This document shows positions 29,019-63,263 of a stretch of DNA of 64,000 nt, piece by piece. Location of the stretch: contig NC_091933.1 of the NCBI RefSeq assembly GCF_041260155.1, positions 20,613,599 to 20,677,598 of the forward strand, written 5' to 3'. This DNA is from Ptychodera flava. Its lineage: Eukaryota; Hemichordata; Enteropneusta; Ptychoderidae. The notes beneath the pieces are model-generated. The model searched no databases. It was not told where the DNA came from and saw only the letters and a list, made by a program, of their open reading frames with translations. Both the position numbers and the translations under genes were made by a program. Positions within the stretch are counted from its first letter, which is position 1; every line of letters begins with the position of its first letter.

Positions 29019-31508
29019 ATGTCATACTGTAGAGAAGAAGGTAATTATATAGTATGGATATTTTTATCAATGTTGATCATCTTCTTTCACAGCAAATATT
29101 TCACCAGTACGCAGTCATAGACTCTCTCAGCAGATTCAAAGCCCTGGCGTCGTCTGAAGGGGTTCGTATTTTGGTCTCCGTACAATTGACGACATCTGAA
29201 TTACTGGCCAATCCATGGACTAAAAGTTTTACTGCAATAGGACACGTGTCGTATTATTTAAGAAATAAAGGAGGCCAACCGTGGTCCTCTCGTTGCGTTT
29301 TGATTCCCCCACAGAAATTGAACCCTCAGCTCAGTTGCTAGTTTTAAGTTTTTAATGATAAATGAAAAGTAAATATCATAGTAAATACTCACAGAATAAC
29401 TTTTAGACACTGTTAACTGTAAGAATGATATGTGATAGTCACATGATAATCACAGTCTGGCATTGACTGTGTGCATTTTAGGGTCTATGCTGTCTGTCAT
29501 TACATGAGTTAAAATTTTGAGGTACAAATGAGACAAATGAGAGACAAAGATTTGTTTGCAGAATCGCGAAATGAATACAGTGTATTTGACAAGTACAAAA
29601 TATACTGCCTGGAAATGTGGCTCTTTCTTTCATCACATCCCCATGTGTCCAACTCTTTCTGAACAGGTAAAGACAAGATAATTTTTGTTACAAGAGAAGA
29701 TCATGAAGAGCCAAGCACTGCTGACATTGACTTTGAAGACGATGATGATGATGAACCAGGTACGACTTTTTCATTAAGCAATGTAGATGATATTTGTCAC
29801 TTCAGCTTGTAGTTTTTGCTACATGAACTGAGAAATGATAAACGGTGGAAGACCAATCACTTGTACTAAAGTTGATTATCTCTTCCTCTGGATATGATTG
29901 ACATCGAACTTTTAGTACTGATGTACATATGTCGCTTGTTTTGATGTGACTTTAGGTATACATAATATTATGGGCACTTTTCAGACTAGCCGACTGATTT
30001 ACTTTCAAGATCTTAAAGTTCACACAGCAATTTACGATCATATACATCTGATGCAAACTTGTGATTTATCATTTTCATTCAGTTATGATTATGACACATG
30101 TCACATGTGAACAGATTTTATTTCGAACCAAAGTTTAAAAACTTTGTTGTGTGTAAAGAACCAGTGGCTGTAACTTTTTATAGTATGTGTTGTACGTCAA
30201 TTGCTAGTTCTGGATTTACTCCCCAAAGCATGTTGAAACGGTATTTAACTAGTCAACATGTTGTCTATACATGTATAATGCATTATTATTGCTTACATTT
30301 AAGTTCTAGTCAATACCAAAATACACTTTTCAACAATATCAATGCAGTCTACACATAGTCTTTACCTTGCCAGACTTCACCGACAAGGCATTCATCTTCT
30401 GGATCCTTCTTCACTTATGCCCATTACAGTATCATCTCACTCTTCTTCCAAGGCATTCATCGACAAAGATGTATGTATTTTCTGCGGTACTCTGGTTCAG
30501 ATACTAATGATAAACATGCCCAGTGTTGGTCACCCTAGTCATTGCCATGGCTTATACCAATCTGGTTGAGGACCTTACGATTGCCAGTTGTCAAACAGTA
30601 GAGTCATGAAATGTGATGTGTTAATTATCAGAGCTGTTAAAGAAACAATTGTGATGAAGGTCATACCCATCAAAATCTGATGAGGCACCCAACTTCATTA
30701 TGAAATTTTTCTGATAAGAAATTGATTCAGTCGATAAACATTTCAACGGAGAACAAATGATTGCTAAAGTGGTAATGAACCCTTCATATCCACCATACAA
30801 GAAACAAATTGAAAAGGGGCTTTAACAAACTTCAATAATATTTTATCCGAATTTTAGCTCCCGTTTTCTGTCCTTTTTTTCTGCATAGCACAAGTAAAAC
30901 GTTACAATTGTCCAGTGTACATGTGTATCTTCATAAGTTTAACAAATTTCATTCTAAAGCTCAAGAAAAAGAATGATAAGTTGAAAATGATACTGTGAAT
31001 GGACTTGGAACTGTGGTTGGGATGTTCACTTAGTTTGCCAGTGTGTTTGAAACTCAGAAAAGATTGCCAAATGGAAACATTGTTCTCAGATTGTTCAGTC
31101 AAGTGGCAGGGCAAGAGCAAATTCAAGGAGAGGAACATTTCCATGGATTAAGAATTCCTAATTCAATTCCCTACTTCTTACCTTCCAGGATTAATCCTAC
31201 CAAATGGTGACATCAACTGGAATTGTCCCTGCCTGGGAGGGATGGCAACTGGTCCGTGTGGTGAGGAATTCAAAGAAGCCTTCTCCTGTTTTCACTACAG
31301 TGCAGCGGAAATCAAGGGATCAGACTGCATAGATCAATTCCGCACAATGCAGGAATGCATGAGGCAGTATCCAGAACTCTACCCGGAAAAAGACGACGAA
31401 GAGGAAGCAGAAAAGGGCCAGGGGGATACTGCTCCAAGTTCAGATGTACCCTCTAAGGAACAAAAAACTGAAGATGATACGTCCAAAACTCAAGAGACCA
31501 AAAGCTAG
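29019..31508 (+). CDS. CHCHD4: CHCHD4 / MIA40 intermembrane-space oxidoreductase (3 exons)
   Basis: The receptor of the mitochondrial disulfide relay: it oxidises CX3C and CX9C proteins in the intermembrane space and is re-oxidised by ALR/GFER. Exons 29019-29040, 29667-29759 and 31189-31508 join in phase 1 at both introns to give 144 aa (human CHCHD4: 142). The N-terminus [20 protein letters not shown] is nearly identical to the vertebrate one. The redox CPC motif is at residues 51-53 (NWNCPCLGG). The twin CX9C helices follow: [11 protein letters not shown] and [26 protein letters not shown] starts the acidic, disordered tail. No presequence, as expected for the animal protein. Start chosen because MSYC is the conserved beginning and an in-frame downstream ATG would lose it. 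An AATAAA lies 206 bp past the stop. Confidence 0.97.
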
Positions 31509-33758: not shown

Positions 33759-34700
33759 TTAGCTACTATAGACTATAGTCTATAGAAGCTATTGGGATGG
33801 GTATTCGTCCGTCGTCTGTATGTATGTATGTATGTATGTATGTATGTATGTATGTATGTCCGTTTGTGAGGCGTCCGTCCACTCAAATATCTTGAGAACC
33901 GCAGTACATACTGATTTGATACAACTTTTCTTAATTTTTTGATATTGTTGAAAATATGCAAATTAGCGCCAAAAAGGCGTTTTTGGTAAAAAATCTTCTT
34001 CATAACCGCTGGTCAGACAGCTTTGTTATTTGGTATACAGGTCCCTAGGGATAACCCAACTTAGATTTGTTCAAATTGTGATGAAATATGCAAATCTGTA
34101 TTTTAAGGAATTTTTTTGTCATTTTTGGTCAAAACTTTATTTTATCAAAACCGCTCGTCTGACAGCTTTGATATTTGGTATACAGGTTCCTACAGATAAA
34201 CTAAATATGATATATTGAATATATGATGAAATCGGCAATTTTGTATTTTTGGTCCATTTTTTGCCATTTTGGTCCAAAAATGTGTTTCTCAAAAACTACT
34301 TGTCTGATGCCTTTGATCTTTGGTATACAGGTTCCTAGGGGTTGTCCTAGTGTGATATATTGAAATTTGATGAAATCTTCAATTTTTGTGTTTTTGGGTC
34401 AATTTTTGCCTTTTTTGGTCAAAATATTTGTTTCTCAAAAGTTACTCATCTGATAGCTTTGATATTTGGTATACAGGTTCCTTGGCTTTATCTTAATGTA
34501 ATATATGGAAATTATGATGAAATCTTCAATTTTGTATTTTTGCAGCCAATTTTGCCATTTTTTGGTCAGGTCATCCTGAAATGAGCTATCAAAGATATCC
34601 ACCTTCTTCATCAATACATGTGTCACTAAAAGTTATTCTCTACATAACACAGCAGAGCTCTGTCGACTGTTGGATCGCTTGTTTTATCAAAACCGCTTGG
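33759..34700 (-). mobile_element. Helentron-like element, copy 3
   Basis: Reverse orientation relative to copies 1 and 2. Reading the minus strand: tandem core units with CTGTATACCAAATATCAAAG, a (CATA)n microsatellite at about 33817-33860, the same 20-bp palindrome CTATAGACTATAGTCTATAG at 33766-33785, then CTAA at 33759-33762. The 5' side near 34620-34680 shares the AACACAGCAGAGCTCTGTCGA-like block with the copy at 18.0 kb. Confidence 0.5.
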
Positions 34701-42250: not shown

Positions 42251-45200
42251 ATGGAAAGAGACTCTGCAAATTCATACCGCGTCGGTCAAAGCATGGATCC
42301 ACTAAATACGGTAATTGAGTCGAGTAATTCTGAATCAACAGCAATCCGTAAACTGTAAAAGCTAAATTGTTATAAAAGAGGCGACAAACATCTCATTTCG
42401 ATAAGTTTGGCCACAGCGAGATTTGTGGAAGACGAGATTTCCTACCTCTTCGATGTAGTTTCTTGTGACTTCTGCTTTCATCTGTGTATTATTCAAGGTC
42501 CAAGGTCAGCTGTATATTATACAAGGTCGTATACAAAGAATCATTAATCCTTAATTTTGTCTGGCAAACTTGCAGTTTGTTGTGATTTTGAAGTCCGCAT
42601 AAATGGACACTCGGCATAAATATATCACCATGCTCAGTTACTAATTCTTGGTCTTCTCCCTAATGCACTGAAATACTCGGTATTCGGAGTGGCAGTCAAG
42701 TCTGTGATGTGTAAGGTGTTGATGGCGATGGTATCAGTTGTATTTCCATCATGACAAGGATTTACATGTCACCAATAACGACAAATGCTGCCTGGACGTC
42801 GATAGGCTCGCAATCGTAACAAAAACAATGAAAATATTGTCATAGCCATATTCATATGGCTATGACATATGTTATTTGATATTTGCTTTCAGTTAATTAC
42901 AATCGAGAACAATAACCTTTATTGTTATTGTTATTTCCTGTTAGGAGAAGAGAGCGTCTTCTACCAGCTGCAATCGTATATTTGCGATCATACTAGCAGG
43001 CTGCGTCGTCGTGATCGTTTTCCTTGTCATTGCGCTCTGTGTTGTTGCCACACGACCGGTGAATGAAGAACATGACTACGGGGTACGAAAGATGAATTTT
43101 ACTCGCCATTGTCATCATCCATGCAACTTTTATGTAGAACACATTACAAGTAGACATGCATACTCATCAGCCTTCTTGAATAGCGTTGAGTTAGTTCTGT
43201 GCGTTCATCGGTTTTTCTGTTTTTGCCACTGCTAATACACCATAGGAAACCAGTGGCGACACTAGCTAGATGCGTTACCACATTATCGATTTTTGCCTTG
43301 CCGAGACAGCGGAAATACAGTCCTGACTCACGACAGTGCTGGTTCTAACACCTGTAATGTTCTTTTACAGTATATATAACGCACTTTACAAAAGAGTAAA
43401 CAGGGGGCTTGTTGACACTCTGGGCAACTTCTAGCTTTCCAAATACCTCACGAATGGTAGACCCCTTTCTCTTCTATGTTCGACCAATGTAAATATTACC
43501 GTCAAGACCAAATTTCTTGGGTGTTTTTACTTTTTTTGTTTTCAGTAACCATCCATTCACATTTTACCGAAACGCTCTTCTTCTTCAGGTCAGCACTTAC
43601 ACCATACCTGTCAGAGACGAGAGGGGGAACCTGCATTTCTCGGCAATACGCGTCAACATCATGAAAGGAGAGGAAGTCTTCTACGATGTACACAGCAGTG
43701 GGGATGGCGACACCGTGAGAGCGACAAAGACTGACTTGGTTGTCAATGAGACATTCTATGAGGTTCGGGATGTCAACAAGGTGAGGTCATCTTGCCCCTC
43801 ACTGCAATGCGCATCTTATTGACAAAACGACCGAATAACACAGCGGTTACTCATAGAGACAGATCAAATTAACCAATACAAGACAAGGACTGTTGATGCA
43901 TTGGTACATGGAGCTTAAAGCTCCATGGTTGGTATGTAGATATACATACCTACCAAAAGAAAGAGAGACAGACAATATCTTACGAATGCCATCTGTAAAA
44001 CCTCAAACTTTCCCAAGTGTAATCTGAGTGTATTATTTATCACCAAATTATGAACTTATTGACTACATCATCAATTGATTATTTTCGTTGAATTATGACA
44101 AGCTAACAAACTAAGATAAACATAAATCGAATGATATTTGCTTTTGAATGATGCAATATTCATATATTGTGAAGGGAAATCTTTTTCAATGACAATTCTT
44201 ACATTAATTAATTAAAGGAATTCAGTTTATGAAGCAAATCAACGACTTTCGGTTTAGGGCCTTGCGCAGTACGCCGACAACTTAGTGCTGCTAATTTCCC
44301 ATAGCTACTAAACATGGCTGACGCTGACCTGTGTAACCATATATGGATATATGCAAATTACTGGTGAACGAATACCTTTAAGACTTGGTCACCGAATGTG
44401 AGTGAAAATGCTCCTCTCTTACAACAATGTTCTCTTCCTTTCAAAAGAAACTGGATGCAACAGTGGAAGTTTTGGAATCTCTGTGTTACCTGTCTCCATA
44501 CAACGCCAATGACGAAGTGAGTCCCGTTGAATTGGACGCAGTTCTGGCCGCCAGCTCCCCGGTAAGTGAAACCGTCATCGGGCTATGTTATCAAACAGTT
44601 GCAATTTCGTCGAAGGAAAAGCAGCGTCCGTGAATTATAAAAACTACAGAAAGATGAAAAGAAAGAAAGGAAGGACCGACCAATGAACTTTTCAAAATGA
44701 ACTCCTAAAATCCAAATTCTGAATCTTTTTAAATTGCCCATTACCAAAATCCCCAGAATGATTTCATTCTATTCACATCGACAATTTACGCGCTGTAACC
44801 TGCGTTAGCATTGATATGAAATAGACGAAATTATTGTCAAAAGAAGTCATATTATTCTCTCGCCAATATGAAACACAGGAAGACGTTGAATTCACCGATG
44901 AACTGACTGTGTATGACATGTATGTCGACGACGTTCCCATTGAAGACGTTTCTGAGATCAGTGATATCATCGCTGATCACTGTTCAGATAAAACATCGTA
45001 CTGGGAAATACCGGTGAACGTGACTACAACGTGTGGGGGAAATCCATGTGAAGACGATGACTTCATGCCTCTTGAAATCCCCTTCCTAGGTACGTAAGAC
45101 ATAATGTCATCCTTCGCGGTCTGTCCTTGTAGCCCGTCCGTCCGTCCGTCCGTTTGTTGGTCTAGCAGTTTCTATATGGATGTGTCACAGTCCCTCCACC

Positions 45201-45723
45201 CATGTGGATGGAGGGACGGTGGATGTGTGCATGCTTGTTTACCTGTCTGTCTCTATAAGCTTTCCCGCTGTTTTAATTTATGTGTCCGGCTATAGCTACC
45301 TGCCCGACTCTGACTAAATCTCCAAGATCGTTGTTTGTCGTATTTTTCCTTGTTTACCATCAATGTAGAGACATCCTTCACAATTTGCCTACCATTTGTC
45401 TGCCTTTATGTCTGCCTCACCGTTCATGTGTTGGTCTCTGCGACTGTACAAATCGCTCGGACATCTACCATAGCAATCGCCGAGACGGTCTGCCCAAATT
45501 TTCCGCGTTTGTCTTAGTGTAAAGATACACGTTCTTTGAAAATGCGACGTTTATATGATTCATTACAGGGCAATCAAACCAAGAGATGGCGATCGATTGT
45601 AAACTACGAACTCGTGTCTGCAAGGTGGTCACCAAAAGAGATTGCAGGCGAAGACGACCACGTCGAAAGTTGGTCTGTTCGCTGAGTTCCAAATTGAGCT
45701 GTAAATGGGTGTGCGACGACTGA
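42251..45723 (+). CDS. BRICHOS precursor A with C-terminal cationic Cys-rich peptide
   Basis: Six exons (42251-42310, 42945-43082, 43589-43780, 44448-44561, 44879-45089, 45569-45723) join with GT/AG sites in phases 0,0,0,0,1 to 289 aa. Type II membrane protein: cytosolic tail 1-31, anchor about 32-55 (FAIILAGCVVVIVFLVIALC), stalk, then a BRICHOS domain. RDVNKKLDATVEVLESLCYL (126-145) aligns with HDFNKKL...DKCYV of human ITM2B, and C203 in DHCSDKTSYW aligns with LCHDKETYKL; C143 and C203 should form the domain disulfide. An acidic linker (CEDDD, 225-229) leads to the last exon: residues 249-289 hold six Cys and RRRRPRRK, net charge about +12, Cys spacing x6,x7,x10,x7,x3. BRICHOS domains chaperone beta-prone C-terminal peptides; by analogy with arenicin-type precursors this peptide is likely an antimicrobial hairpin. 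That function is inferred. Paralogous to gene B 5.3 kb downstream. Confidence 0.85.
42839..42866. repeat. Perfect 12-bp-stem hairpin before gene A exon 2
   Basis: GTCATAGCCATA, loop TTCA, then TATGGCTATGAC. The stem is nearly the same as the terminal hairpin of the Helentron-like element ending at 19197, so this is probably an isolated element end in intron 1. Confidence 0.5.
45569..45723 (+). other. Exon encoding cationic Cys-rich peptide of gene A
   Basis: A separate last exon (acceptor CATTACAG, phase 1) that codes for the peptide and stop. Core: VCKVVTKRDC, then RRRRPRRKLV, then CSLSSKLSCKWVCDD. The four central Cys are mirror-symmetric about RRRRPRRK: C-x7-C-x10-C-x7-C. That fits a two-stranded hairpin with two ladder disulfides and a very basic Pro turn. 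Two more Cys (C249 before, C287 after) could add a third bridge. Upstream KLRTR is a possible but non-consensus processing site. Confidence 0.75.
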
Positions 45724-45949
45724 TTGATGGTACAACCACGTCGAAATATCGAGTGATTTGAATATGTATCTCTGAGAGACAGAATCATACATTTATCAGA
45801 AGTATACTCGGAGCCACTGCATAACATTGGAATACTTTACAATATTTATCCTTCAATTTGATCTTCAATTACGGTGACATTGAGATTTCCAACGGTTTAT
45901 TGATCATCATGAGTTTGATATTATATTCAATGAGAATCACTTCACGGTG

Positions 45950-45955
45950 AATAAA
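45950..45955 (+). terminator. Polyadenylation signal of BRICHOS gene A
   Basis: AATAAA 227 bp after the gene A stop, the first canonical signal. Confidence 0.5.
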
Positions 45956-45959
45956 ACAA

Positions 45960-48740
45960 TATATTTTGTGTTACCGTTCAAAGTGGAAATTTATAAACCA
46001 ACTCACATGAACACTCTTCCGCTAATAAAACTATCGGAGCATACTCTGTCACATTACATTTGTCCTCTTCCGTTTTCACCACATTTTACGGAAGTGATGT
46101 ATAGAGAATAACATACAAGGAAAAACAACCAAGATCGAGTAACAACTCAGTTATTGATGGCATTTTCACCACTCTGCCGTAGAGACGTCGTTTTTCATCT
46201 AATGGGACATTTCCTCGCGGGGACAGATACTGGGTCTAAAGATCTGAGTGTATCCGATCCCAGAAGATTCTAACTAAAATTTAACGGAATAATTTTGATG
46301 AAGGTACAAATATGTATTGACCATTGGTAATAAAATCGTAATTATAAATAACATAGCATTCAGACCATTAAAAAAACCTCGTAGGGTTGTTTCAGCATTT
46401 GTCATAGTCCATCATCCGTCACCAAAATCAGGATGGACTAACGGCTATGGAACAGTCACACATAGCGTACAATAGCGTACCGCAACCTGTACTCACTCTG
46501 TCACGATGGTCGTGGCTGGCGAAGAGCGACAATCCAGACAATCTGATAACGCCTTCGTTATTAATTAGACGCTGCTATCCCTTCAATAATGTATTTGTCA
46601 AAGGAGGGCATTTGTACAATAAGGAATAGCGACAGATTTATTGATATTGATGGTATGATAGATTAGATTTCATGCAGGGCTGTTGTACTTTATATATGAA
46701 TTCCTTTCAATCTATGCCGTCTCCATAACAAAACTTCAATAACACCCGAGACTTTGCATCAGGGAACTCTTGTTATGTTGAAATATGTATAGAACTGCGG
46801 CGACGACAACTTAGCGTTATTCTCAATGCGATGGTAACAAACATGAATGTAAAAAAATAGACGTCATGGTAACAAACTATGAATTTGTACCAGGCGCCCT
46901 CTGTCTAATTGCAGCCAAGTCTTCTTCTCTTGTCACCACTTCACCTGTGTCATTACGCAAAGTGTAGGAGTCCTCATCTTCAGTCATCTATAAGGATATC
47001 ATTGTTGACGAGCGGACGAATAACCATATCATCTGCCTCCGCGGTATCTGCCTTTAGTACTTAATGCCCTGCGTGAATGGAGGGAGAGCAGCCATACTTG
47101 TATCAGATGATATTAATAAGCAATTTGGTAGTGAAATCGGTTATAGAACTTTTCAATTACGGATTGTTTTGCCGATAAGTAAACTCCTTTTAAAAAGCTG
47201 TTTTACAATCTGGTGCGCAGTGCACTGCCATTAAATATGGCCATCCAGCGCATAAACAAAGGAAGCTTGGCATTTTACGATCCTCACACAGCGTGAGTAA
47301 TAGGAGCTATGCCTATATTGGCATGTGACCATCTCCAGTGAAGCAGATAACCGCTACTTTCAAATAAGTCAGTCATCGCAGCGTACTGTGCTTTTTTCCG
47401 TGTCCTAGAACTGCTGATTTCATTTAACTTTTGCAGTCGACACTTTAGTTAATACAGATGAAAATAAGTACATGTGTTGAATTTGTTTTATATTTACTGG
47501 ACATGCTTGTAATGAAAAATTTCTTAAAAACTGTACATTTGCCACCTAACTTTTGAGGTCTCAACAAAACAGACACTCAAATTACTTGCCTCGCAAGAGG
47601 GCGCCGTCTATAACGTTCTGCTTTTCAGAGATGCGGTCATGCAGGGTCTATGGTGAAGACAATTATGTTTTTCTGAATTTGTTTATGAGAATGATTTGAA
47701 ATTTGATCTGAGGAAGCATCTTGCAAACATAATTTGATCATTACCTTGGCCATGCTTCTGGTAGTAAACGTAATATTCATAACTTTGTTCGTTTGTGTAA
47801 TTGATGATTCGAAAAGTCAGTGGAAAGGAAAGTCTTTCAAACTATGGATTAATTAGATGGTGTTGGACGAGTAATTCATTCCTTCCCAAGACATGTAGCG
47901 CTGACCTTGAGTTTGACACTTGCAGTAATGCTTCCCTGGCTTTGGCTTCCACATGTCACATTGTTTAGAGACATGATTGTCTAGATCTGCCATAAAGATG
48001 GCGTCAGCACTCCGCGGTTTTAAACGGCCAACTATATATGGATCATAGCAATAGGGATGGATTTCTCCAAAATTATCACTGGAGGCGCTATTTTCAACTG
48101 GACATGCCCATCACTCGAGTTACATTGTTCTAACGCCTGTCAAGGGGATCTGTGCCACTGAATGATTGGTCAATGGGAAATTAATTACAGGTCATGGGCC
48201 AGATAATCACATGTATAGAAAAAACATATCGGCTTTTTTAGCATTGTTAACGAAAGACAAGGAGATTGAAAACACTAATTCTTCACTGAAGTAATAATGA
48301 AAACTTAATTCTAAATGTTAATTAAATATGACGTCGCAAATAATTTGTTCTTTGTCTGTGATTCTATTTGTGCAATAGATCTGTTGTTTGAAATCCCATG
48401 CCCAGACTATCTCGTTTCAGGCAAGGAAATGAATAAATTTACCGTGGAAAAATCAATATGCTTCTGATGAAATTTTGTAGAAAGCAAGAAGACAACGCTT
48501 TACAAGTTTAGAGATTTATGTCTCCGTGTGTGAAGTTTTTATAGCAAAAAAGCCCATACACATTGGCCCGCCTGTCTAATCCAAGCATCACATTCGGCTC
48601 TTCTCGAGAATGATTCACGGGCCACCGAAGTGGTCGATATTCTCTTCATCATTGATACCACCTAGTGAGACCAGTTTATTCAGCCGCAGTCCAGCTAGAG
48701 AAGATTATGGATTCTAAAGGACAGAAAAAGAAGGGGAAAA

Positions 48741-48775
<35 letters not shown>

Positions 48776-51036
48776 AAACTGAAAGAAAAATAAACCAAGA
48801 GCGACAGGTGGTCGAATTTATGTTTTCCGAATTGTGATTTTCGCGACTTCTGTAGGTGTGAGTGACGTCATGGTTTCGAGGGCACGACTTCACATCGCAT
48901 TTCGCAAGCAAATCAACGTTGAGTAGTAACTGAGTCGACCGCTAAAGAGGTAACAAACGGTCATAATCTGCAGCAAACTACAGATCAATTTTAGCAAGTC
49001 TGAATTGATACATGTATTTGTATACGCAGACGTTGGTGAAACGATAATTGCAGCCTTTTCTTTAGTTTGACCGTTCGCGGAGTGGACTCGAATGTAAAGT
49101 CATTGAACTTTTGTTTTGTTTTGTTTTGTTGTGTTTTGTTTGTTTTCTGTTTTGAAGAGCTGGTTGAGTCATCCTTAGTTTTAGTGTCACGTCATTTGGC
49201 CTCAGCCGTTACCGAAATATAGCAAGGAAAAATACGTGATCCTATGCTCTCTTAATATAAGCACTGTTGTTGAATCAGCTATTACAATAACAAACTCTTC
49301 ATCAGTTTTCAGAGTTGTCATATATTTTTGTCCCCGTTGTGAATAACAGACCCCTTTTCAATAACTGCAGGGTACTTTACCACCAAGACTGTGATGTCCA
49401 GTTGACCCGAGGAACGGGAATACAACGGTGACTTGAACTAAAACAAATTTAAATGTTGGCTGTCACAAATCTGGTTTTTATCCCAGGTAAACAGCTGTGG
49501 TACTGCAAGAAATTTAGTATAGGAATGGTCAAAGTGCAACTTGCCCAACCGAATCGTATTTACTTCAACCAACCAACCAGCATCGTCCCCATGGAGTAAT
49601 AGGCATGCGAATCACTACAGCCTAGTACAGGGGTCGATGACACTGTCTTCTTCGCAGCGCTACATCGGAATACTAGCCCGTGTGTATGGTACACATGCTT
49701 AGCCAGGACGACCTTGACCTGACAAGGGTAATCTCACTTAAAACCGAGTGACACAATTTTAATTTATAATTATGATTCAATTCACTATTGCCCGTATGTG
49801 GCAGTGTGAGGGGCATATGGAATTACAACGCGCAGACTTAAATTGCAGTTCGCGCATGAAAACGATGAATCATCGTTGTCTTGCAGATGATATTGTTATA
49901 CATTGACCAATGGCTAAATCGTAACCGACCGATCCACACGAAAAGTTTGCATTGGAGTCCAGAGTACAATCGGTGAACGATCGGTGTTTCTGAAGTCTCC
50001 TTGGGAACAGACAAATGACGCAAAACTTCAACGCCGGACATATGATGTCCTATTTCCTGTTATTGGCATGAACGATGTAAATAAAAAAAAATGAAGCTGC
50101 ACACAAAATACAGGTAAATACTAAAGAGAAGCACTCATTTAGTGTTTTCGTGCGAAAATTTACAATTTTTGGTTCTTATATTCAGATGATATTTAATTGT
50201 TGTTTCTGCTCTTTGAGTATAAATGCGAATGTAAAGTCTGTCATTCATTACTTCTCCCTGAAGGATGTAACAGGTTTCACAGAGTTAGTGAAAGTGAAAG
50301 TTCCTCTCAGACATTGCATTTTTTGCGTAGTATAATGGACCCTGATTAATACAAAGATGCAAGAAGTCCGGAAAAATAGTTTAAGTGGTTCTGGTACATG
50401 CATTAAATGGCATGACTTAAAGGCTCTCCCTCACTCCTCTGTTGTGGCATTTGATATAGTGGATGTGTGAAATGATTGGTAACAGTTTGAAATATTTTAT
50501 TCTCCACTGAAACTTTTATAAACTAAATGAATTTCCTATTACATAAATCCGATACCATATGTGGGGCCTTTACAAGCGAAATTCAGTTTTTCTCGTTCTG
50601 ATAGCATTTTTTCATAAACGTTGTTAATGCTGTAATATGGTTCGAAACTGATACATTGACACAGCTGAAATAATGAGGCAACCTGACAAAGATGACAGTC
50701 ATATGTCCTTAACCTCGGTCTGACCCGAATGACGTCATGATGATGTAATGTCAAAGTTCTTCAACACGACAAAAGTGTGTACTAACGGTCACCATGTCAT
50801 TTGTTTTGAAGTGGTGGATAACTTGCTGATAAAACAACATCCTTTCCTAAACGTCCTTGATCTGATTTTCTTTGTAGCATGTTAACAAACTATCATGGAC
50901 AGAGAGCATAAAAGCTTTGATCAGAGGTGTACTCGGACAAAATCTGCACACTCTGCTCTCGATGCATCACAACCGCTGTAAGAGCACAAGACCACCTTAA
51001 ACGCACATCTATTGCGACGACCGTCTGTAATTGATT
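45960..51036. other. Spacer between BRICHOS genes A and B
   Basis: About 5 kb with no third BRICHOS exon: I looked for the DVNKKLD, SHC/DHC...SYW and Cys-peptide signatures on the plus strand and saw none. It contains (CAGA)n at about 48743-48776 and a GTTTT-rich run at about 49110-49150. Confidence 0.45.
48743..48776. repeat. (CAGA)n microsatellite
   Basis: About eight CAGA tetranucleotide units in the spacer between the two BRICHOS genes. Confidence 0.9.
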
Positions 51037-54000
51037 ATGGCCGATACCATGGAAACGGGTTCCTTTGGCAAGAGTCAGAGTATTGCTCCTTTGACACCTG
51101 TAAGTATTTTTTTGATTCCGAGAAATGTTTCGGGTTTTCGGTTTTGAAAATACTCGAGATCTCACGAAGAGTATAAAACACATAAATTAAACTCAAGTCT
51201 TGATGTGAAATACCCTACATCATAGGCATACTATATGTAAAGAAGGCCCGATATTTGTTCAAATTTCTTGATAAGAGGTTCAACGATTTGAGGGCTGTCA
51301 CTGAATGGTGAACCCCAGAAACCAAAATCTGCAATGTTTTGATATGATAAATCACACATTAGATACGTTATATCATGTCGATAAATCATCTTCCTTTCAC
51401 TTTTATTCTCATTTTCATTTTCTAACCTAACTGTAGGAAGACGTAGGGACCTCCAGAAACGGCAAATCATGCTGCTGCTGCTCTTCCGTGAAGACCCTTG
51501 TCCTTGTCAGCGTCTTAATGGTCGTAATCTTTGTTGCTGTTGGCTGTCTTACTTACATACTGGGATTTCTCAGACCATGGCAATTTCATTCGAACTACCA
51601 GCAGGTGAGGCTTTGAGAGGAAATATTTCAACGTGTAATACGATAACCAGGAAAGGTAGAAGATGATTAAGATACCGACCTTTGTATGTACATGTATATG
51701 AAAGATATTTCCCTTACATATCAAGTCATTAGTCGATTTCAGAGCTCATTTAATTATGCATGTACGTCTACAACTATTTGTTTAATTCACTTTAGTCGTC
51801 CCGTCATTTTAGCTGCTCGACTGTAAAAGATTAATCGATTTCAGGAACACGTTGTCGGCGTCAAAGATATCAACGGACAACCATACTCCGCGACGATCGA
51901 AGTCAATGTTGCCACAGGTGAAGAAATATACAGAAATGGATACAGTGACACGGCCATTGGCGTGAAGAAAATGGCAGTAGAGGAAGATGAAAGTGACATG
52001 TACCTGGTTAGAGATGTAAACAAGGTCAGGTGTACGTCCGTTTCTATAACAACAAGTGCTAAGTAACAGAAACTCTAATTTGTATTTCCCATATGCATGG
52101 GTACTTCCTTCTTTAATTTGAGTAAGACGCAGTTGCTTTGATTTCTCCAAAGCCCATCTTTTCAGATGAATATGAGATAATTAATCCTCTCAGAAGTACA
52201 CAAAACATCCTAGTTTTTGACAGATATTATTGTTCACACCGCATGTGCAAAGATGATGTTTTAATCTTCCACCAAAGTGTAAAATCGTGTAAACGAGTGA
52301 CATTATTCATACAAACTGTGTCAAGTAATGTTAAAGGGATACAGTCGTCAGAACTGCGCTCAAAGGTCGTATGGGACCCATACGACCAATGGAAACACTG
52401 TATCCCAGGTACGATGGTGATTGATGACAGTTAAAACATGTCTGTCATAATCTACATCGTATAATTTAAATGTTGCAGCTATGATGATGAGGTGAATCTA
52501 GATATCGTGCACGAAATACATTGTTTGTAAACAAGAAACTTGCACAGGCGCAGTTCCGACGACTGTTTCCCTTTAAGGAAAACCCACAGTGACAATCAAC
52601 TACTTTTCCATTGCTATAGGAATGATGCACTTTCTTCAAACTATTCGATAAGGACTCCTACAACTTACTCGATAATCGATCGTAAGCGACATCCGAAAAA
52701 AAAACCCACCAAAAAACAAATCGACGTCGATGAGGATTTTGCAATGTTTTACTTTCCCTTACAGAAATTAGACGCCTTAGTTGTGGAAGCTGATTCGGTC
52801 TGCTTGTTGTCTGCTTACGATGCTAACGATGAAGTCAGTCCAGTGGAACTCGTTGACTTCCTAGATTCCTACTCGGTAAGTTGAGAATCCTGAGTAGAGA
52901 CCTAGAGTCTTTAATTATGAAGAAAACAACGAATAACATATGATTAATTATGGTTAGTTCCACTTTTTGTACAACGTGTATTATCTCTTATAAACAAGCG
53001 TTTTTCAACACATTTTCAGTTCACAATTTACCAATATCCGGCTGATGGTGTACTGACTCGGATGACAGAATGGGCCGACAATCCAAAGCTTACTCTTAAC
53101 CTTTAAAGGGAAAAACAATATAAGCCACTTTGTATAATAATTTATTTCCTTTATCCCATAAAACAAGTATCTTTTCTTATTCCTCGCCCTGATTTATGTA
53201 ATCTGAAGTGTTAGCCAGGCAAAACAACGCATAATGTACAATCTGCATTGTAATTGCTGACATATGAATTCTGGTCCAAACTAAAAGGCATTAATAATAT
53301 CGGACATCACACATATAAAGTCTGGTAATTTTTAACAAATTAAACACCGGATATTTCAACATGATATTTTGCACCCGGGTGCAAAACAATGACTTTATTC
53401 TTACAAACAAAATACCGGAGACAGAGCTATAAATTATCGGGTCGTTCCAACCCAGAACGGCTAATTTCCTAGCCCATGTCGGACAATACTACTTATGGCG
53501 GTAGAGATGCATTTTGCTATGTTCAATGCAAACAGACCTCCTATAGGATAAACGCTGAATTGTCATACAGTTTTTAGTTCAGAAGTACGACATTTTGTGG
53601 CAACTTATCCCCTCGCCATAGATAAACCCAAAATTGTGGCGAATGACTGGTCAAGCATGTATTTGACAAAATCTTTACCCTCCCATATTAGGCTGACACC
53701 GATTTCTCTAACGAAGTGACAATTCATGAAATGGACATTACCGACACCCCTATTCCGGACATCAGGCTAGTAAGTGACGTCATTGCCTCTCACTGTGCTG
53801 ACATGACGTCATACTGGTCAGTGATCATTAATACAACCACTACCTGTGACGGGCAGGGTTGTGAAGACGACGACGAGGATAGGGATGACGACGGGAATGG
53901 AGATAACTCGTTAATAGCACAGCATACAGCAGGTAAAAAAGACAAGACTTTTTGATATTGTTTCTTTGAATGGTGAAATAATCGTGATATTGTAGGTCAC

Positions 54001-55028
54001 GGTCTCATTCATATCCCCCTCAATGGTTATTTTAGCAACAATGTAATTCTCTGTGTCAATACCAATAATTTGAATTTCAAAGACGTTTGCTGCCTTCACA
54101 CTTAAATAACTACGTATTTCAATGCTCGAAGTCTGGCAAATCATAATATAGCTTGTAGTATAATTAATACAGAATATATATATATATATATATATAAAGT
54201 TACAACAAAATTATTGAATATTTCACAATCATACTAAGACTGATTCACTGAATTAAGTTAAAGTTAATGATTAACTGAAATACCCATCAGCAACAACGCT
54301 AATCTTGAAAAATATAAATGAACCGTTGCTGGTTTTACAACGAATATAACACGATAAACATTTACAACATTGAAAGAGGTATCATATGTGACAATGAAAC
54401 CATATCTTCAGTAGGCAATACGTGAAAGTATGTTACTCTTACAATAGAGAAGCAGAAAATAATATGAGACATTAAACGCAACGAAGTAGTTATTCTGAAT
54501 GTAATTGAAAATTAAAAAAAGAGAAAATTGATAATCGTCCAGAAAGTTAAGCAACTTTTCGTTCGGACAAAATGAATAGAGCCAAAACATAGTCGTGATT
54601 ACAGGGTGCATTGCATTGCGTCCATGGTGAGTGATCGGCAGTAGGAATGCTTGATTTAAATCTCTCTTTCCCATACTAATGTAAGAGCTACTGCATCTCT
54701 TGATTCAAAGCAACTGTTGAGAAATTTACGTCGGAACTTGGAGTCTTACATATCGAAAAGTTACTGTAACATTTGATTTTCAACTGGTAATTATTCACGA
54801 CATTCAAACGGATCTTTATTTTTTTCAGAGGTAAAAGCTGTCGGGAGAAAGCGGCGTGGGAGAGTTTGCCGTAAAGTGTTGAAAACTGTCTGCAGGCTGT
54901 CCCGGCGAATTATTGTCAGATTAATATGCAATGTGGTTTCCAAACTAGTTTGTAAATTGGTGGACAATGAGTCATCGCCGACCGACAATGGGCCATGGCA
55001 CGGGCTTCGTCCAGTGCCAAGGCCTTGA
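51037..55028 (+). CDS. BRICHOS precursor B with C-terminal cationic Cys-rich peptide
   Basis: Six exons (51037-51099, 51437-51604, 51845-52024, 52765-52875, 53692-53932, 54829-55028) join in phases 0,0,0,0,1 to 320 aa. All donors are GT; exon 3 uses the weaker GTCAGG. The cytosolic tail (1-41) carries a CCCC cluster (33-36), a likely palmitoylation site beside the anchor (about 42-64). BRICHOS domain: VRDVNKKLDALVVEADSVCLL with C150, DANDEVSPVEL identical to gene A at 10 of 11, then SHC(209)ADMTSYW. N221 in NTTTT is a possible N-glycosylation site. An acidic linker (EDDDEDRDDDGNGD, 232-245) precedes the last exon, where RKRR (261-264) is a furin-type site. The released peptide holds C268-x7-C276-x11-C288-x7-C296, net charge about +9, and a neutral Pro-rich end. 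Predicted secreted cationic hairpin with antimicrobial potential; the domain call is strong, the activity inferred. Confidence 0.87.
52335..52572. mobile_element. TTAA-flanked MITE in intron 3 of BRICHOS gene B
   Basis: TTAA (52331-52334), AGGGATACAGTCGTCAGAAC on the left, and the near reverse complement ending GACGACTGTTTCCCT on the right, then TTAA (52573-52576). TIRs match at 22 of 25 positions. A central palindrome GGTCGTATGGGACCCATACG sits inside. 238 bp, intronic, no effect on the exons. Confidence 0.65.
54171..54197. repeat. (TA)n microsatellite in gene B intron 5
   Basis: Run of about 12-13 TA units between exons 5 and 6. Confidence 0.9.
54829..55028 (+). other. Exon encoding cationic Cys-rich peptide of gene B
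   Basis: Last exon, entered in phase 1 as in gene A. Starts EVKAVGRKRRGR (furin-type RKRR), then VCRKVLKTVC, RLSRRIIVRLI, CNVVSKLVCKLVD, then NESSPTDNGPWHGLRPVPRP. Cys spacing x7, x11, x7 mirrors gene A, but the residues differ greatly while the preceding exons align well. Strands alternate basic and hydrophobic residues, as in amphipathic beta-hairpin peptides. Confidence 0.78.
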
Positions 55029-56228
55029 TCATCAGCAAAACAAACCCGATAGGCTTTCCAAGCGTCCAGTTTTATACCTTTTTTAATCCTGCTCTGTATT
55101 TGTACCTGGGACCACCAGTTCTGAAGAACACCACCTCAACTACCTTGGGATAATGACGTGATGTAAAAAGCGTTAGTTTGTGAGAATACTCATGGCGTAG
55201 AATAACGCTATATCAGACACTATAGTACCATTTTCATCCAAATATAGATTAGAAAAAAACAAGAGAAAATTAAACACGTAGATTTCCTCCGTCTTTTATA
55301 GCCGTTCAATTTTTCCAATTTTTCCAGTGATTTCAATCGTGTGGAAGCTAGAAGTCCTATGTACCTCAAAGCTTGTGTTCCATCTCATGTAAAATTGACA
55401 TATAGCATTGTTAGATGTTCCTATACATTGATAAGAGGAGTGTTATACGATTTCTTTTGTAAAAGATATTTACGTTATTGGGTATTTTCACATCAGGTAA
55501 AATATTGCGTGCTAGATTTCGCTTTGATTCCCTCTGTTATAGTCGTACTCGCCGGTCTGTGGAGCGTACTCACTGCTGAGAGGTACTTCGAGATCTTTGA
55601 CAGAGTAGAGACTCACAGAGTTGTTGGATATCAATCGATGGTGGTTTATTACCTGAAGTGTAAAGTTTACACATCAGATGCCCAGCTATCTCCGACTGAA
55701 AATAGTGGGTGATCATCCCTTTTTAAAAAGAATTCTAACATATTAATTAGATTAAAAGAGTCAATCCTCCAATCACTAATCAACTAATATTTCTTGATTG
55801 GCTATTGATCATATAAAATCATACATAATCTGCATAAGTGACATCATCGTTATACAACATTTCCCTTACGTAATCGTCCCAGGGTCCTGTCTGGAATTTA
55901 GATATTGATGGTAAGAATTCACTTTACTGCCTTGACACTAGATGTCACTAATACAAGTTTCTATCTTTATCCTTGATACTTAGGTATCAATGACGCAAAT
56001 ACATTGAATGTCCCTGACAACGGAGTTTTAACCAAGATGAAGGAAAATTCGTAATGATCATTAACCCTTACACAGACTTGGAAAGTTCAGCCGTCTCGTT
56101 CATTGACCCTTGTACAGATTCCGAAATTACAAAAACAATATCAATAAGCCAAAGAAAATTTAGTCTGTAACACCTCCTTAGAAGAAATCGTCACTAAATA
56201 TTAAGATTTCCGTATTATGGTCCATTTC
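55029..56228 (+). other. Downstream of BRICHOS gene B
   Basis: Probable 3' UTR and spacer. ATTAAA at 55269-55274, a common variant polyadenylation signal, is the first candidate. A 123-codon frame at 55341-55712 has no recognised features and may be chance. Confidence 0.35.
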
Positions 56229-58199
56229 ATCTCAAAATACAATGTGGAGAACTACCAAAATTTGAAAAGAGTCATAATTTTTCTTGCTGCATGTATCGTA
56301 TTTAGAAGTCCGTAGACAAGAAAAAGCAGTGTTGCCGATCGTTTCTTTAGAAATGTAATTTTACAAATACATCCCAAACGATTTTATGCAACTACTCATT
56401 TACTTTGTAGCAAATTTTAACCACCATAGAAACAGGAATATAAGATTGAAGGATCAATGTAGACTCCGAGTAACATAAGTAATATCTTTATTAAATTGAT
56501 CAAAAAGTGTTCTGTTCCAATTATATTTTCAGTGACATATATCACAACAATTTATAATATAATAGCTTGGCAGCTACACATCGAGGTTGAGTTTAAATAC
56601 AGTTAATGCGTCTCAGTATTTATCGAAAGTCAAGAACAGAAAGCATTTTCTAACATTCCTGTTTGAGTAGGCTACAACTTAAAAAAAAGTTTTTATGCTA
56701 TTCATTTTTCTCTGAGATCCCTGGTACAAAGGAGTTAGATGGTGTATACTGAAGATTTAACGATAGCAGTTTTCTGCACAGTGTAATGTCATTTCATGTT
56801 GAAACTGACGTGAACATTTTCTGATAGGGACATTGTCCAGCTGCAGGCTTTCGACAAAAAGTGCTTGAATTAGAGATATTTGGAGATCCGGTCAATGCGA
56901 GGGCGCCCTTCTGAGTAAAGCTGGACATGTACTTTGTACTCGATCATATATGAAGTTATTTTGTTGTTACAAGAAGGCTGAATACAGTATCAACAATTTG
57001 CCAAGAAGGTAAATGTCAATAGTAATGCTTACATATAACTTCAGGTAGAATGCGCCTTGGAGACAGATATTCGGACTCTCAAATTTTTACAATACTTTTG
57101 TAGTCTATCGCTCGTTGGGGATCATTTTGAAGTTCTTGGATAATAAACGTTTTACCGTCATATTTTTGTGCACATCGAAATTTTGTCTTTCCAAATAGAG
57201 TTAACAAAGCTTGAAAACACCATAGTTACTAAAAAACTGTATACTAATCAATCGATCGATCACGACAGGCTGCGGTGCGAGATAAAAGACAGGGCCATGA
57301 ATGCGACACTTGGAGACTGAGGTGTTTTAAAATAGCTTCGGTCATTGACCGGTTTTATGATACAAGCCATTAGATAATCACTCAACGTAAAATGAAGCAT
57401 GAATTAAGTAAAAAATGTTCCGAACTTTTTCCTTTTTTTGTTTCATCTTTGTTTTTCTCCTTCGGTTTTGTATTCTTTATGCTGGCCTGCTGCCGTTGTT
57501 TTATTGCTTATTTCTTTAATAAATTAATAAATAGATAAAAAGATAAGAGAATTAAGTCAAAGCTTCCATTATTTTTACTTTTAGTAGCTTATATTATCAA
57601 AGTCATTTCGAGACAAAACACTGTGAATTAAGCATTTTGCTTCCGAAAAACTGCGGTTTGCTGTCCGCTTCCTGGCGTATGTTCCGAAAACTGACATTCT
57701 GGCAAAATCGATCGAACATGCATAACAATATATGTACATTGTAATAATGATAAAATGAAAGTCAATATTTATATTCACTTTTAAGATACTTTAATGCATG
57801 CATGCATTGCCAATTTGCGAGATTCGACATTTAGGACGACAATCTTGAGGGCGCAATTCAGTGGTTGACCCCTTGCATTTCAGTATCAGAATAAGGGAAT
57901 AAAGTGATCCATTTGAATAGGGTTGAATTCATCTTTTCGACTATTTTGTGAACTATGGTTTTACGAACCAAGGTAGACTGACTTGACAGAGGGCACTTCA
58001 CGTTTAGGGACCATTCAGTTTTTACGGCCTGGGGGGGGGGCGGCAAAATCTTGTCGCTGGTGTTCAAAAAAATATAGATCCCCCCCCTGCATTTTTCGCG
58101 AAAAAATGATGACCCCCCCTTTGTCAGACGAAAATAATTGATGACCCCCCCCCCCCCCCGCTGAAAAATAACCAAAACCCACATGTCAAATTTACCCGC

Positions 58200-58282: not shown

Positions 58283-58372
58283 ATGCAAACGTCTGTTACT
58301 TAAGGACGACTGTAAGGCAATTTTTAACTTCATTTCCATAGACAACTTATGTCCATGGACATTGTATAAAAT

Positions 58373-58800
58373 AAACTTTATTGGAGTGGTTCGCCAAAGG
58401 CAGCGCTCCGGTTAAGAGGGTCATGGGCCATTACGTAAATCAACTTTATCTAGTGGGCAACCGAAGGTGGCCGCTGGTAAAAAGAGGGTCGATCGTGGCC
58501 ATTGCACGAAGTAAACTTTACTGAACAGGGCCGCTGAAGGCGTCCGGCCGTTAAGATGCTCATGGGGGTATTACAATAAAGTCAATTTATTGTAGTGGGC
58601 CGCCGCAGGCGGCCCGCCGGTAAAGAGGGTTGATCATGGCCATTGTATGAAGTAAACCTAATTGGAGTGGGCCGCCAAAGGCGTCTGCCCGTTAAGAGGG
58701 TCATGGGTAATACATAAAGTATATTTATTGTAGTGGGCCGCCGAAGGCGGCCCGCCGGTAAAGAGGGTCGATCATGCCCATGGCATAAAGTGAACTTTAT
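58373..58800. repeat. Tandem array, about six 70-bp units
   Basis: The phrase AAACTTTATT.GAGTGGGCCGCC or a near copy recurs at about 58373, 58443, 58513, 58583, 58654, 58722 and 58793 (periods of 68-71 bp). Each unit includes GGCCGCCGAAGGCGGCC-like palindromes and TAAAGAGGGTCGATCATGG. Confidence 0.8.
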
Positions 58801-60133
58801 TGTAGGTATTATGTTTTTGAAAATGTGGTGACCCCCCTTTCCTACCAGTGAAAAAGTGATGACCCCCCCTTTGCGGATTCCAAAATTATGATGACCCCCC
58901 CTGGATTTTGCCGGCCCCCCCCGGCCGTAAAAACTGAACGGTCCCTTAGCGAGTTTGGAAGCTATATTGACAATTCTTTGAATATTCTTTGAATATTGAA
59001 TATTGTGTTTCCGTAAAGATGACAAATTTGAACTTAGTTCTCCGCCAAGTACGTACGGTTATGCAAGTCGAGGAATGATATCAAACGTTAAGGCGGCGTA
59101 CAACATCACTTTTCTGCAAAAATATAATTCTATTTTTCAGTATTTTGTTGGCCCCTTATTGACATATTAGTAAGGTTTGCTTTCTTGTATGACAAGCAGT
59201 TGTAAACTGGGTGAGTAAGAAGAATATGCAAATTTATGCAAATGAATAGATTCCTTGGCTTACCCTTATTTTGAACATTTCAAAAGAGAAAATATTTCGA
59301 TAAAGTTCGGAACATTTTTACTTAATTCATGCTCATTTACGTTGAGTGATTATCTAATGGCTTGTATCATAAAACCGGTCAATGACCGAAGCTATTTTAA
59401 AACACCTCAGTCTCCAAGTGTCGCATTCATGGCCCTGTCTTTTATCTCGCACCGCAGCCTGTCATGATCGATCGATTGATTAGTATACAGTTTTGTAGTA
59501 ACTATGGTGTTTTCAAGCTTTGTTAACTCTATTTGGAAAGATAAAACTTCGTGCACAAAAATATGAAGGTGAAACATTTATTATCCAAGAGCTTCAAAAT
59601 GATCCCCAACGAGCGATAGACTACAAAAGTATTGTAAAAATTTGAGAGTCCGAATATCTGTCTCCAAGGCGCATTCTACCTGAAGTTATATGTAAGCATT
59701 ACTATTGACATTTACCTTCTTGGCAAATTGTTGATACTGTATTCAGCCTTCTTGTAACAACAAAATAGCTTCATATATGATCGAGTACAAAGTACGGTGG
59801 TTTTGAAGTATAGCACATGTCCAGCTTTACTCAGAAGGGCGCCCTCGCATTGACCGGATCTCCAAATATCTCTAATTCAAGCACTATTTTGTCGAAAGCC
59901 TGCAGCTGGACAATGTCCCTATCAGAAAATGTTCATGTCAGTTTCAACATGAAATGACATTACACTGTGCAGAAAACTGCTATCGTTAAATCTTCAGTAT
60001 ACATCATCTAACTCCTTTGTACCAGGGATCTCAGAGAAAAATGAATAGCATAAAAACTTTTTTTTAAGTTGTAGCCTACTCAAACAGGAATGTTAGAAAA
60101 TGCTTTCTGTTCTTGACTTTCGATAAATACTGA

Positions 60134-61433: not shown

Positions 61434-61818
61434 GAGACGCATTAACTGTATTTAAACTCAACCTCGATGTGTAGCTGCCAAGCTATTTATTATAAATTGT
61501 TGTGATATATGTCACTGAAAATATAATTGGAACAGAAACACTTTTTGATCAATTAATAAAGATATTACTTATGTTACTCGGAGTCTACATTGATCCTTGC
61601 AATCTTATATTCCTGTTTCTATGGTGGTTAAAATTTGCTACAAAGTAAATGAGTAGTTGCATAAATCGTTTGGGATGTATTTGTAAAATTACATTTCTAA
61701 AGAAACGATCGGCAACACTGCTTTTTCTTGTCTACGGACTTCTAAATACGATACATGCAGCAAGAAAAACTATGACTCTTTTCAAATTTTGGTAGTTCTC
61801 CACATTGTATTTTGAGAT

Positions 61819-62161
61819 CAGATTGTGGAAAACACGTACAGAATTACAGTGTTGTGCAGATGCTTTTGGTCATTATGTTCTTGATGATATGTTTTGTAAG
61901 TTTTCAGAAGTTAACATACAACTTTCTCAGGTTACGCAACTTCATATAATGTAGTTGTAGAAATTTCTCTTATAGCACCTAATGGGTAACTGTAAACATC
62001 AGATAATTTCATTTCACAAAGGGGAGTGGAACACATCATCGAGGACAGATATAATGATCTTTCATTTTGTTTCGATATCCTATAATTATATATGGCGCAT
62101 TATAGTGCTCAAAATGCATTGTGTTTCATTTTCAAATGTGACATCTATGATTCCTTTGCAG
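61819..62161 (+). other. Upstream of lectin exon; possible signal-peptide exon
   Basis: At about 61859-61894, MLLVIMFLMICF followed by GTAAGT looks like a short signal-peptide exon. It would end in phase 0, whereas the lectin exon needs phase 1, so I do not join it. Confidence 0.3.
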
Positions 62162-63263
62162 AATCATTCTGTTTCTGTAAGAGGTACGAGGTGCATTGTG
62201 AAATGCCTGCAGATGCCAACTCTGACGGGGTGACCAACATTGAGTATGCTGAAAGTCAATGTGATGCACAAGGAGGTACCCTTGCTAACTTAGTTGATGC
62301 ACAAATCGACTCTTTGGTAAGGAACTTCATATCCAGTCGTCGTCTCGATCGCCCTCCTTGCATCAACAAGCCATCATTTGGATTCTTTAGTGGTCTCGGC
62401 GATGCTAAGAAAGAAAATAAATTTGTATGGAGTAATGGAACTCCGATATGTCGCAGAGGTTTCACAAACTGGGCTCCGAAGGAACCCAACAACAACAGGA
62501 ATAGAGATAAAGAGGGGCAAGACTGTGTCCAGCTTTGGTAAGTCGTCTATCTACAGTATTCATAATATCCAGTTAAACGTTTGTATATTGTCAATGAAAT
62601 ATATAATCGCGAAATCAAAGGCATTCAAATGCCTGAACACAGTTAATGAATTTACTACATGTAGTCAGGTAAGTTTTTCTTTGTGGATTTTACAGTTTAG
62701 AACAAAAAATGTCAACAATTCACAGCATATCGCACATGAATCAAGTTAAACCCTTTAAGGACTCTTAATGTTTTTCAAGGACACATTACAGAATCCGACT
62801 TTGGGTATTCCGGAGGCGTTAGAATCAGCGCATTGATATTTCAGTGTCTATTCATTTTGAAGACCACCTAGGATGTATGTTCATATTTAACATTTCCTAC
62901 AGTAAATGCCATAAGGGATCTCGGATTTTTTTATCATGATAGTTTAAATATATTCTTTATAAGGATATTTATATGCTTTTAAAATTCTTTATTCCATTAT
63001 TGGTTTGTTGATTTCAGGTACAGATTTGGACATAATGGAAAATGGGATGATGAATACTGCAATGTTCGGCCAAAGGGATTCATCTGTGAGATTCCTAGTA
63101 AGTTTAGTCGTTGCCTGACAAAATCAAAGCCTGTTAAGAAAACAAAGATACATAGATATCAAGTAAACTGTCCTGATTCCGTGGTTAATAATCCTATAAT
63201 TCTGGTGTCTGATATTGTCCAATATTGTCTTTTGCAGGCCACTGTTGTTGCGATAGTCCTTAG
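62162..63263 (+). CDS. C-type lectin domain protein (5' exon(s) missing)
   Basis: Three exons (62162-62537, 63018-63097, 63238-63263) splice in phases 2 and 1, and the first must receive a phase-1 exon from upstream that I could not find. The product is a C-type lectin-like domain: FCFCKRYEVHCEMPADANSD (start), ESQCDAQGGTLANLVDAQID (the usual helix-1 region), FTNWAPKEPNNN with the EPN motif of mannose-type Ca2+ sites, DCVQLW, then NGKWDDEYCNVRPKGFICE, where WDD replaces the usual WND. The domain Cys are present. The tail after the domain is only IPSHCCCDSP, from a 26-nt micro-exon. Probably a secreted sugar-binding, possibly immune, protein; ligand preference is inferred from EPN only. Confidence 0.85.

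Follow-up and report, generated by a model that had tools for sequence, protein, structure and literature searches.

A tandem pair of predicted membrane-anchored BRICHOS proproteins with cationic, cysteine-rich C-terminal tails

Gene models, paralogy and coding evidence

The 64-kb stretch of DNA analyzed here (hereinafter, the window) contains two neighboring genes on the + strand, each predicted to encode a membrane-anchored protein that combines a BRICHOS domain with a basic, Cys-rich C-terminal tail. The gene pair was rebuilt by splicing the raw sequence, which confirmed the observation as a whole: gene 1 (42251-45723) consists of six exons that yield a product of 289 amino acids (aa), and gene 2 (51037-55028) likewise consists of six exons, with a product of 320 aa. 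The introns have GT/AG borders in all cases (10/10 across both genes) and the series of intron phases, 0,0,0,0,1, is the same in gene 1 and gene 2, so that the two six-exon models with matching phases proposed in the first-pass annotation, a reading of this DNA from its letters, are borne out. In the protein alignment, the introns of gene 1 and gene 2 occupy columns 21/21, 76/78, 142/142, 180/179 and 255/260; that is, introns 1 and 3 fall in identical columns, and introns 2, 4 and 5 are offset by at most two, one and five columns, respectively.

The two proteins share 39% identity over 262 aa (E 1e-46) and, judged by their sequences, are products of tandem paralogs. A tblastn search of the window with both proteins, at E values up to 10, returned just these two genes below E 1 and hence no third copy. 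In shuffle tests, the observed paralog score of exons 3, 4, 5 and 6 exceeded that of every shuffled version (5000/5000), whereas the scores of the weakest exons were reached by 120/5000 shuffles for exon 1 and by 32/5000 for exon 2; accordingly, the models are least secure in exon 1 and at the start codon. Different codons are used at 65 of the 111 identical aligned residues. Saturation of synonymous sites extends across the whole protein and to every region other than the acidic spacer, for which the synonymous divergence (dS) is 1.85, while the nonsynonymous divergence (dN) amounts to 0.59 for the protein overall, with 0.33 for the BRICHOS domain and 0.57 for the tail. Thus, the tails are very likely translated and maintained, albeit less strictly than the BRICHOS domain.

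Anchor, BRICHOS domain and cationic tail

A single strong hydrophobic segment is present near the N terminus of each protein, at residues 32-55 in gene 1 (42978-43049, +; best KD19 hydropathy 3.45) and at residues 41-65 in gene 2 (51494-51568, +; best KD19 hydropathy 2.96). Because roughly 30-40 residues precede this segment in each protein, it appears to suit a signal anchor, in a type II-like orientation, better than a cleaved signal. The predicted cytosolic N terminus is encoded by exon 1 (42251-42310 in gene 1, from splicing with weak paralog support; 51037-51099 in gene 2, from splicing and shuffles), and the anchor by exon 2 (42945-43082 in gene 1, from splicing and paralog shuffles; 51437-51604 in gene 2, from splicing, hydropathy and shuffles). 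Exon 2 of gene 2 also encodes a juxtamembrane run of four Cys (CCCC, residues 33-36, 51470-51481, +), which sits just ahead of the membrane segment, separated from it by a few residues on what is predicted to be the cytosolic side, and is a possible palmitoylation site.

The regions that follow the anchor were delimited by splicing together with the Pfam matches. Exon 3 (43589-43780 in gene 1; 51845-52024 in gene 2) encodes a linker and the start of the BRICHOS domain with its conserved Asp, exon 4 (44448-44561; 52765-52875) contributes the first conserved Cys, and exon 5 (44879-45089; 53692-53932) contributes the second conserved Cys along with an acidic spacer that contains a Cys pair and is supported by its charge. 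With respect to the Pfam profiles themselves, BRICHOS is the sole match of the gene 1 protein (E 6.3e-5, 23.6 bits, just below the curated cut-off of 25); the gene 2 protein matches the same profile at E 0.14 and 12.8 bits, ranked after a weak match to SP_C-Propep (E 0.024). The latter (residues 21-86, below the cut-off) was set aside as a resemblance on the part of the hydrophobic, Cys-rich anchor. Thus, the profile match that the first-pass annotation had named as a check was obtained for both proteins, but in each case below the cut-off. Taken alone, the gene 2 match would not be convincing, and the assignment of this domain in gene 2 rests on paralogy to gene 1.

Among PDB sequences, searched up to E 10, Bri2 (8rnu) was the only match, with E 0.87 for the gene 1 protein alone as the query and E 0.03 for a two-sequence profile of gene 1 and gene 2. 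Alignment of the pair with Bri2 by hhalign yielded E 4.8e-6 over 84 columns, compared to E 0.2 for a reversed Bri2 segment that served as the control. Moreover, gene 2 shares Asp 127, Cys 143 and Cys 203 with gene 1, these residues align with Bri2, and one Asp and two Cys are described as invariant across the BRICHOS superfamily (PMC2751770). Taken together, the Pfam and PDB matches, the hhalign result with its reversed control, and the Asp and two Cys indicate that both proteins carry a divergent but real BRICHOS domain. Searches beyond animal sequences gave 92 pattern matches in viral contigs and 40 in prokaryote genomes, none of them confirmed as relatives, a result that says nothing about animals; Rfam returned nothing at the gathering threshold.

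The last exon (45569-45723 in gene 1; 54829-55028 in gene 2), delimited by splicing, charge, shuffles and a window scan, encodes the tail and the stop codon. The net charges of the BRICHOS domain, the spacer and the tail are, respectively, -19, -6 and +10 in gene 1 and -15, -10 and +13 in gene 2; both genes therefore combine an acidic proregion with a last exon that encodes a cationic C-terminal peptide, as is the case in BRICHOS antimicrobial precursors. When stop-free 50-aa windows were taken across the 64 kb in six frames with a step of 10, at least 4 Cys and a net charge of at least +9 were found in 3 of 1078, all of them in these two tails and two of them overlapping, under thresholds that were chosen after the tails had been seen. 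The type II-like anchor, the ITM2-like BRICHOS domain, the acidic spacer and the conserved basic, Cys-rich last exon anticipated by the first-pass annotation are, then, upheld by the KD19 values, hhalign, the charges and the shuffles.

The tails are 43% identical between the paralogs, a similarity that exceeds what composition would give (0/5000 shuffles, or 7/5000 with Cys masked). Four Cys are aligned, spaced C-X7-C-X10-C-X7-C in gene 1 and C-X7-C-X11-C-X7-C in gene 2; the tail of gene 1 has one additional Cys on either side of these, six in total, and that of gene 2 has four. Release by furin, raised as a possibility in the first-pass annotation, fits only one of them. In gene 2, a furin-type site of the RX[KR]R form, RKRR (54846-54857, +), stands directly before the Cys core, and a cut there would produce a 56-aa peptide that begins with Gly 265 and has a net charge of +9. 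The gene 1 tail contains two RX[KR]R motifs, both within the Cys core, among them the convertase-like RPRR (45655-45666, +), which falls in the loop bounded by Cys 264 and Cys 275.

As for the fold of the tails, the hairpin put forward in the first-pass annotation was not recovered as a beta-hairpin by AlphaFold2, whose best models contain two helices in both tails; the Cys residues, for their part, are spaced as would suit a nested hairpin ladder. The input for these models was the tails only, with two sequences each; the mean pLDDT of the best model was 66.2 for the gene 2 tail and 83.0 for the gene 1 tail, with two of the five gene 1 models at 44 and 39. The hydrophobic moment is likewise larger for a helix (100 degrees) than for a strand (160-180 degrees) in three of the four tail arms, the exception being the second arm of the gene 1 tail. 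However, the four shared Cys are spaced so that they can nest, symmetrically about tail residue 30.5 in gene 1 and 27 in gene 2, whereas the modeled turns center on residues 28 and 24.5, respectively, so that a helical hairpin would misalign paired Cys by about five residues. The Cys symmetry thus fits the helical model poorly. The tails may fold either as a nested beta-hairpin, as most of the known BRICHOS peptides do, or as a helical hairpin; helical examples among the published peptides are nicomicin and HfBRI-28.

Relation to known BRICHOS precursors and predicted function

BRICHOS proproteins are generally type II transmembrane or secretory (reviewed in PMC10182729), and the features listed for the superfamily include an N-terminal transmembrane helix or signal peptide, a convertase site ahead of the mature peptide and, in that peptide, two antiparallel beta-strands with nested Cys (PMC9714404). 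The closest published parallel is found in the polychaete literature. Of the 13 BRICHOS-related peptide precursors described from Heteromastus filiformis, five (HfBRI-20, -23, -25, -28 and -54) are transmembrane, and two Cys-rich BRICHOS-related peptides of Arenicola marina, cited in the same paper, are named integral membrane proteins (PMC10745061). The five consist, like the products of both genes here, of an N-terminal piece, a membrane helix, the BRICHOS domain and a C-terminal cationic peptide. Because such transmembrane precursors are already in print, the belief of the first-pass annotation that anchored precursors had gone undescribed was mistaken, as was its statement that BRICHOS antimicrobial precursors start with a signal peptide. 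The paper describes HfBRI-25, and HfBRI-54 in its N-terminal part, as hairpins with two disulfides (PMC10745061). The differences, drawn from the published descriptions of these precursors, concern the peptide: a dibasic site precedes it in all 13 H. filiformis precursors (13/13), whereas gene 1 lacks one at this position, and the spacing in HfBRI-54 is C-X4-C-X4-C-X4-C as opposed to C-X7-C-X10/11-C-X7-C in the present pair.

The gene organization has its own precedent in preproalvinellacin of Alvinella, whose gene family has some of its copies in tandem, five introns and a last exon that holds the peptide (PMC5431198). All of these features, along with the order of BRICHOS domain and peptide, recur in the two genes, and this precedent, too, counts against the novelty claim of the first-pass annotation. 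Unlike these anchored proteins, preproalvinellacin has a signal peptide, and its 22-aa beta-hairpin, alvinellacin, is identical among paralogs, compared with 43% identity between the tails described above. In nicomicin precursors, BRICHOS lies inside an acidic proregion (PMC6265681). A 2019 review reports BRICHOS antimicrobial peptides from polychaetes only (PMC6780910); our literature search, which listed titles and the beginnings of abstracts, showed no BRICHOS antimicrobial peptides outside annelids among these, and a literature search on BRICHOS in hemichordates returned no papers.

By analogy with these precursors, we propose that the pair encodes type II anchored BRICHOS proproteins whose tail is most likely a membrane-active host-defense peptide of the kind known from marine worms, a reading to which we give about an even chance. 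It starts from what the sequence contains, namely the gene models, the paralogy, the BRICHOS similarity, the charge split, the conserved Cys pattern and the gene 2 furin-type motif, and it would entail chaperone action, cleavage, disulfide pairing and antimicrobial activity. While in the secretory pathway, the basic, disulfide-rich tail would rely on the acidic BRICHOS domain and spacer for shielding and for help with folding; a furin-like convertase would then free the gene 2 tail by cutting after RKRR, and shedding or another protease would free that of gene 1. Release might occur outside the cell or in granules, and the freed peptide would damage microbial membranes. Several observations weigh against this proposal: both proteins miss the 25-bit Pfam cut-off for BRICHOS, neither an RX[KR]R motif nor a dibasic site stands directly before the gene 1 tail core, and the AlphaFold2 models and the hydrophobic moments in three of the four arms point to helices, while most published relatives are beta-hairpins. 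Thus, of the interpretation offered in the first-pass annotation, the anchored BRICHOS proprotein with a cationic tail stands and the novelty fails, and neither a furin step common to both genes nor a beta-hairpin is supported. The pair is built like the BRICHOS antimicrobial precursors, although we do not file it as a member of that group.

The main rival explanation, which we regard as a serious if tentative possibility, is that the genes encode ITM2/chondromodulin-like regulators, in which the released basic, Cys-rich domain would be a signal or a matrix-binding factor rather than an antibiotic. The C-terminal domain of chondromodulin and tenomodulin is Cys-rich and larger than the tails described here, and it is not known as an antimicrobial. 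A regulatory role is suggested by the similarity to Bri2, the only PDB sequence match, which is backed by hhalign. Like the pair, Bri2 combines a transmembrane precursor, BRICHOS and a C-terminal peptide, and furin releases the 23-aa peptide of ITM2B/Bri2, which has one disulfide (PMC9714404). Chondromodulin is described as a glycoprotein of type II that contains a furin site (PMC6841647); by description, chondromodulin and tenomodulin resemble the pair as type II membrane proteins with BRICHOS. Furthermore, rat Itm2b has six exons (PMC8429969), as do both genes here, and a divergent group of echinoderm and amphioxus BRICHOS proteins is on record that diverges earlier than group A, which in turn lies near the ITM2 families (PMC2751770). 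Against such a role, the tail charges of +10 and +13 and the acidic proregion fit the published BRICHOS antimicrobial precursors better, and the mature Bri2 peptide has a single disulfide and no strongly cationic multi-Cys tail comparable to the four and six Cys found here.

The uneven distribution of cleavage sites raises another alternative, namely that the gene 1 tail stays unreleased and serves as a surface module, either tethered or shed, with gene 2 alone being a peptide precursor. This would account for the presence of a furin-type site ahead of the core in just one gene, gene 2, and for the confinement of both gene 1 RX[KR]R motifs to the Cys core, but the four Cys shared by the aligned tails suggest one common use, and a cut within a disulfide loop could still yield a two-chain peptide; we consider this alternative improbable. 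Finally, the last exons might be chance open frames misjoined to BRICHOS genes, which is hardly credible given that the tails match between the paralogs beyond all 5000 shuffles, that an intron of identical phase 1 precedes both tails, and that the tail dN of 0.57 stands against saturated synonymous sites.

Genomic surroundings and significance

An exon with a C-type lectin domain (62086-62538, +; Pfam Lectin_C, E 5.3e-8) lies some 7 kb downstream of the two BRICHOS genes. The intervening region includes a long inverted repeat, in which 56211-57391 pairs with 59336-60133 and 61488-61836 in seven pieces of 66-247 nt that are 91-100% complementary; its right arm is interrupted by about 1.35 kb, and it resembles either a fold-back element or a mobile element bounded by long terminal inverted repeats. 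Elsewhere in the window, there are two nucleotide-sugar transporter exons (6918-7664, -, and 10259-10729, -; Pfam Nuc_sug_transp, E 1.1e-88 and 3.6e-40) and a CHCH-domain exon (31152-31505, +; Pfam E 2.6e-8) that resembles the mitochondrial import protein CHCHD4/MIA40. Tandem arrays with units of about 138-146 bp were found, among the matches listed, at 16740-17268, 18168-18957, 34112-34568 and 58354-58802.

Given that the anchored layout and the gene organization have been published, any novelty may reside in the peptide pair itself. It is conceivable, but to our mind rather doubtful, that in a non-annelid host the anchored, BRICHOS-chaperoned cationic peptide with its nested C-X7-C-X10/11-C-X7-C core (a long hairpin that may be alpha-helical) represents a new class of defense peptide outside the marine annelids. 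The two gene models add a Cys pattern that differs from the spacing given in the cited literature for capitellacin, tachyplesin and HfBRI-54. Moreover, a tandem pair with a furin-type site before the peptide in only one copy amounts to a natural experiment on the release of peptides from anchored BRICHOS precursors. Should the host turn out to be something other than an annelid, the polychaete-only distribution reported for BRICHOS antimicrobial peptides would no longer hold.

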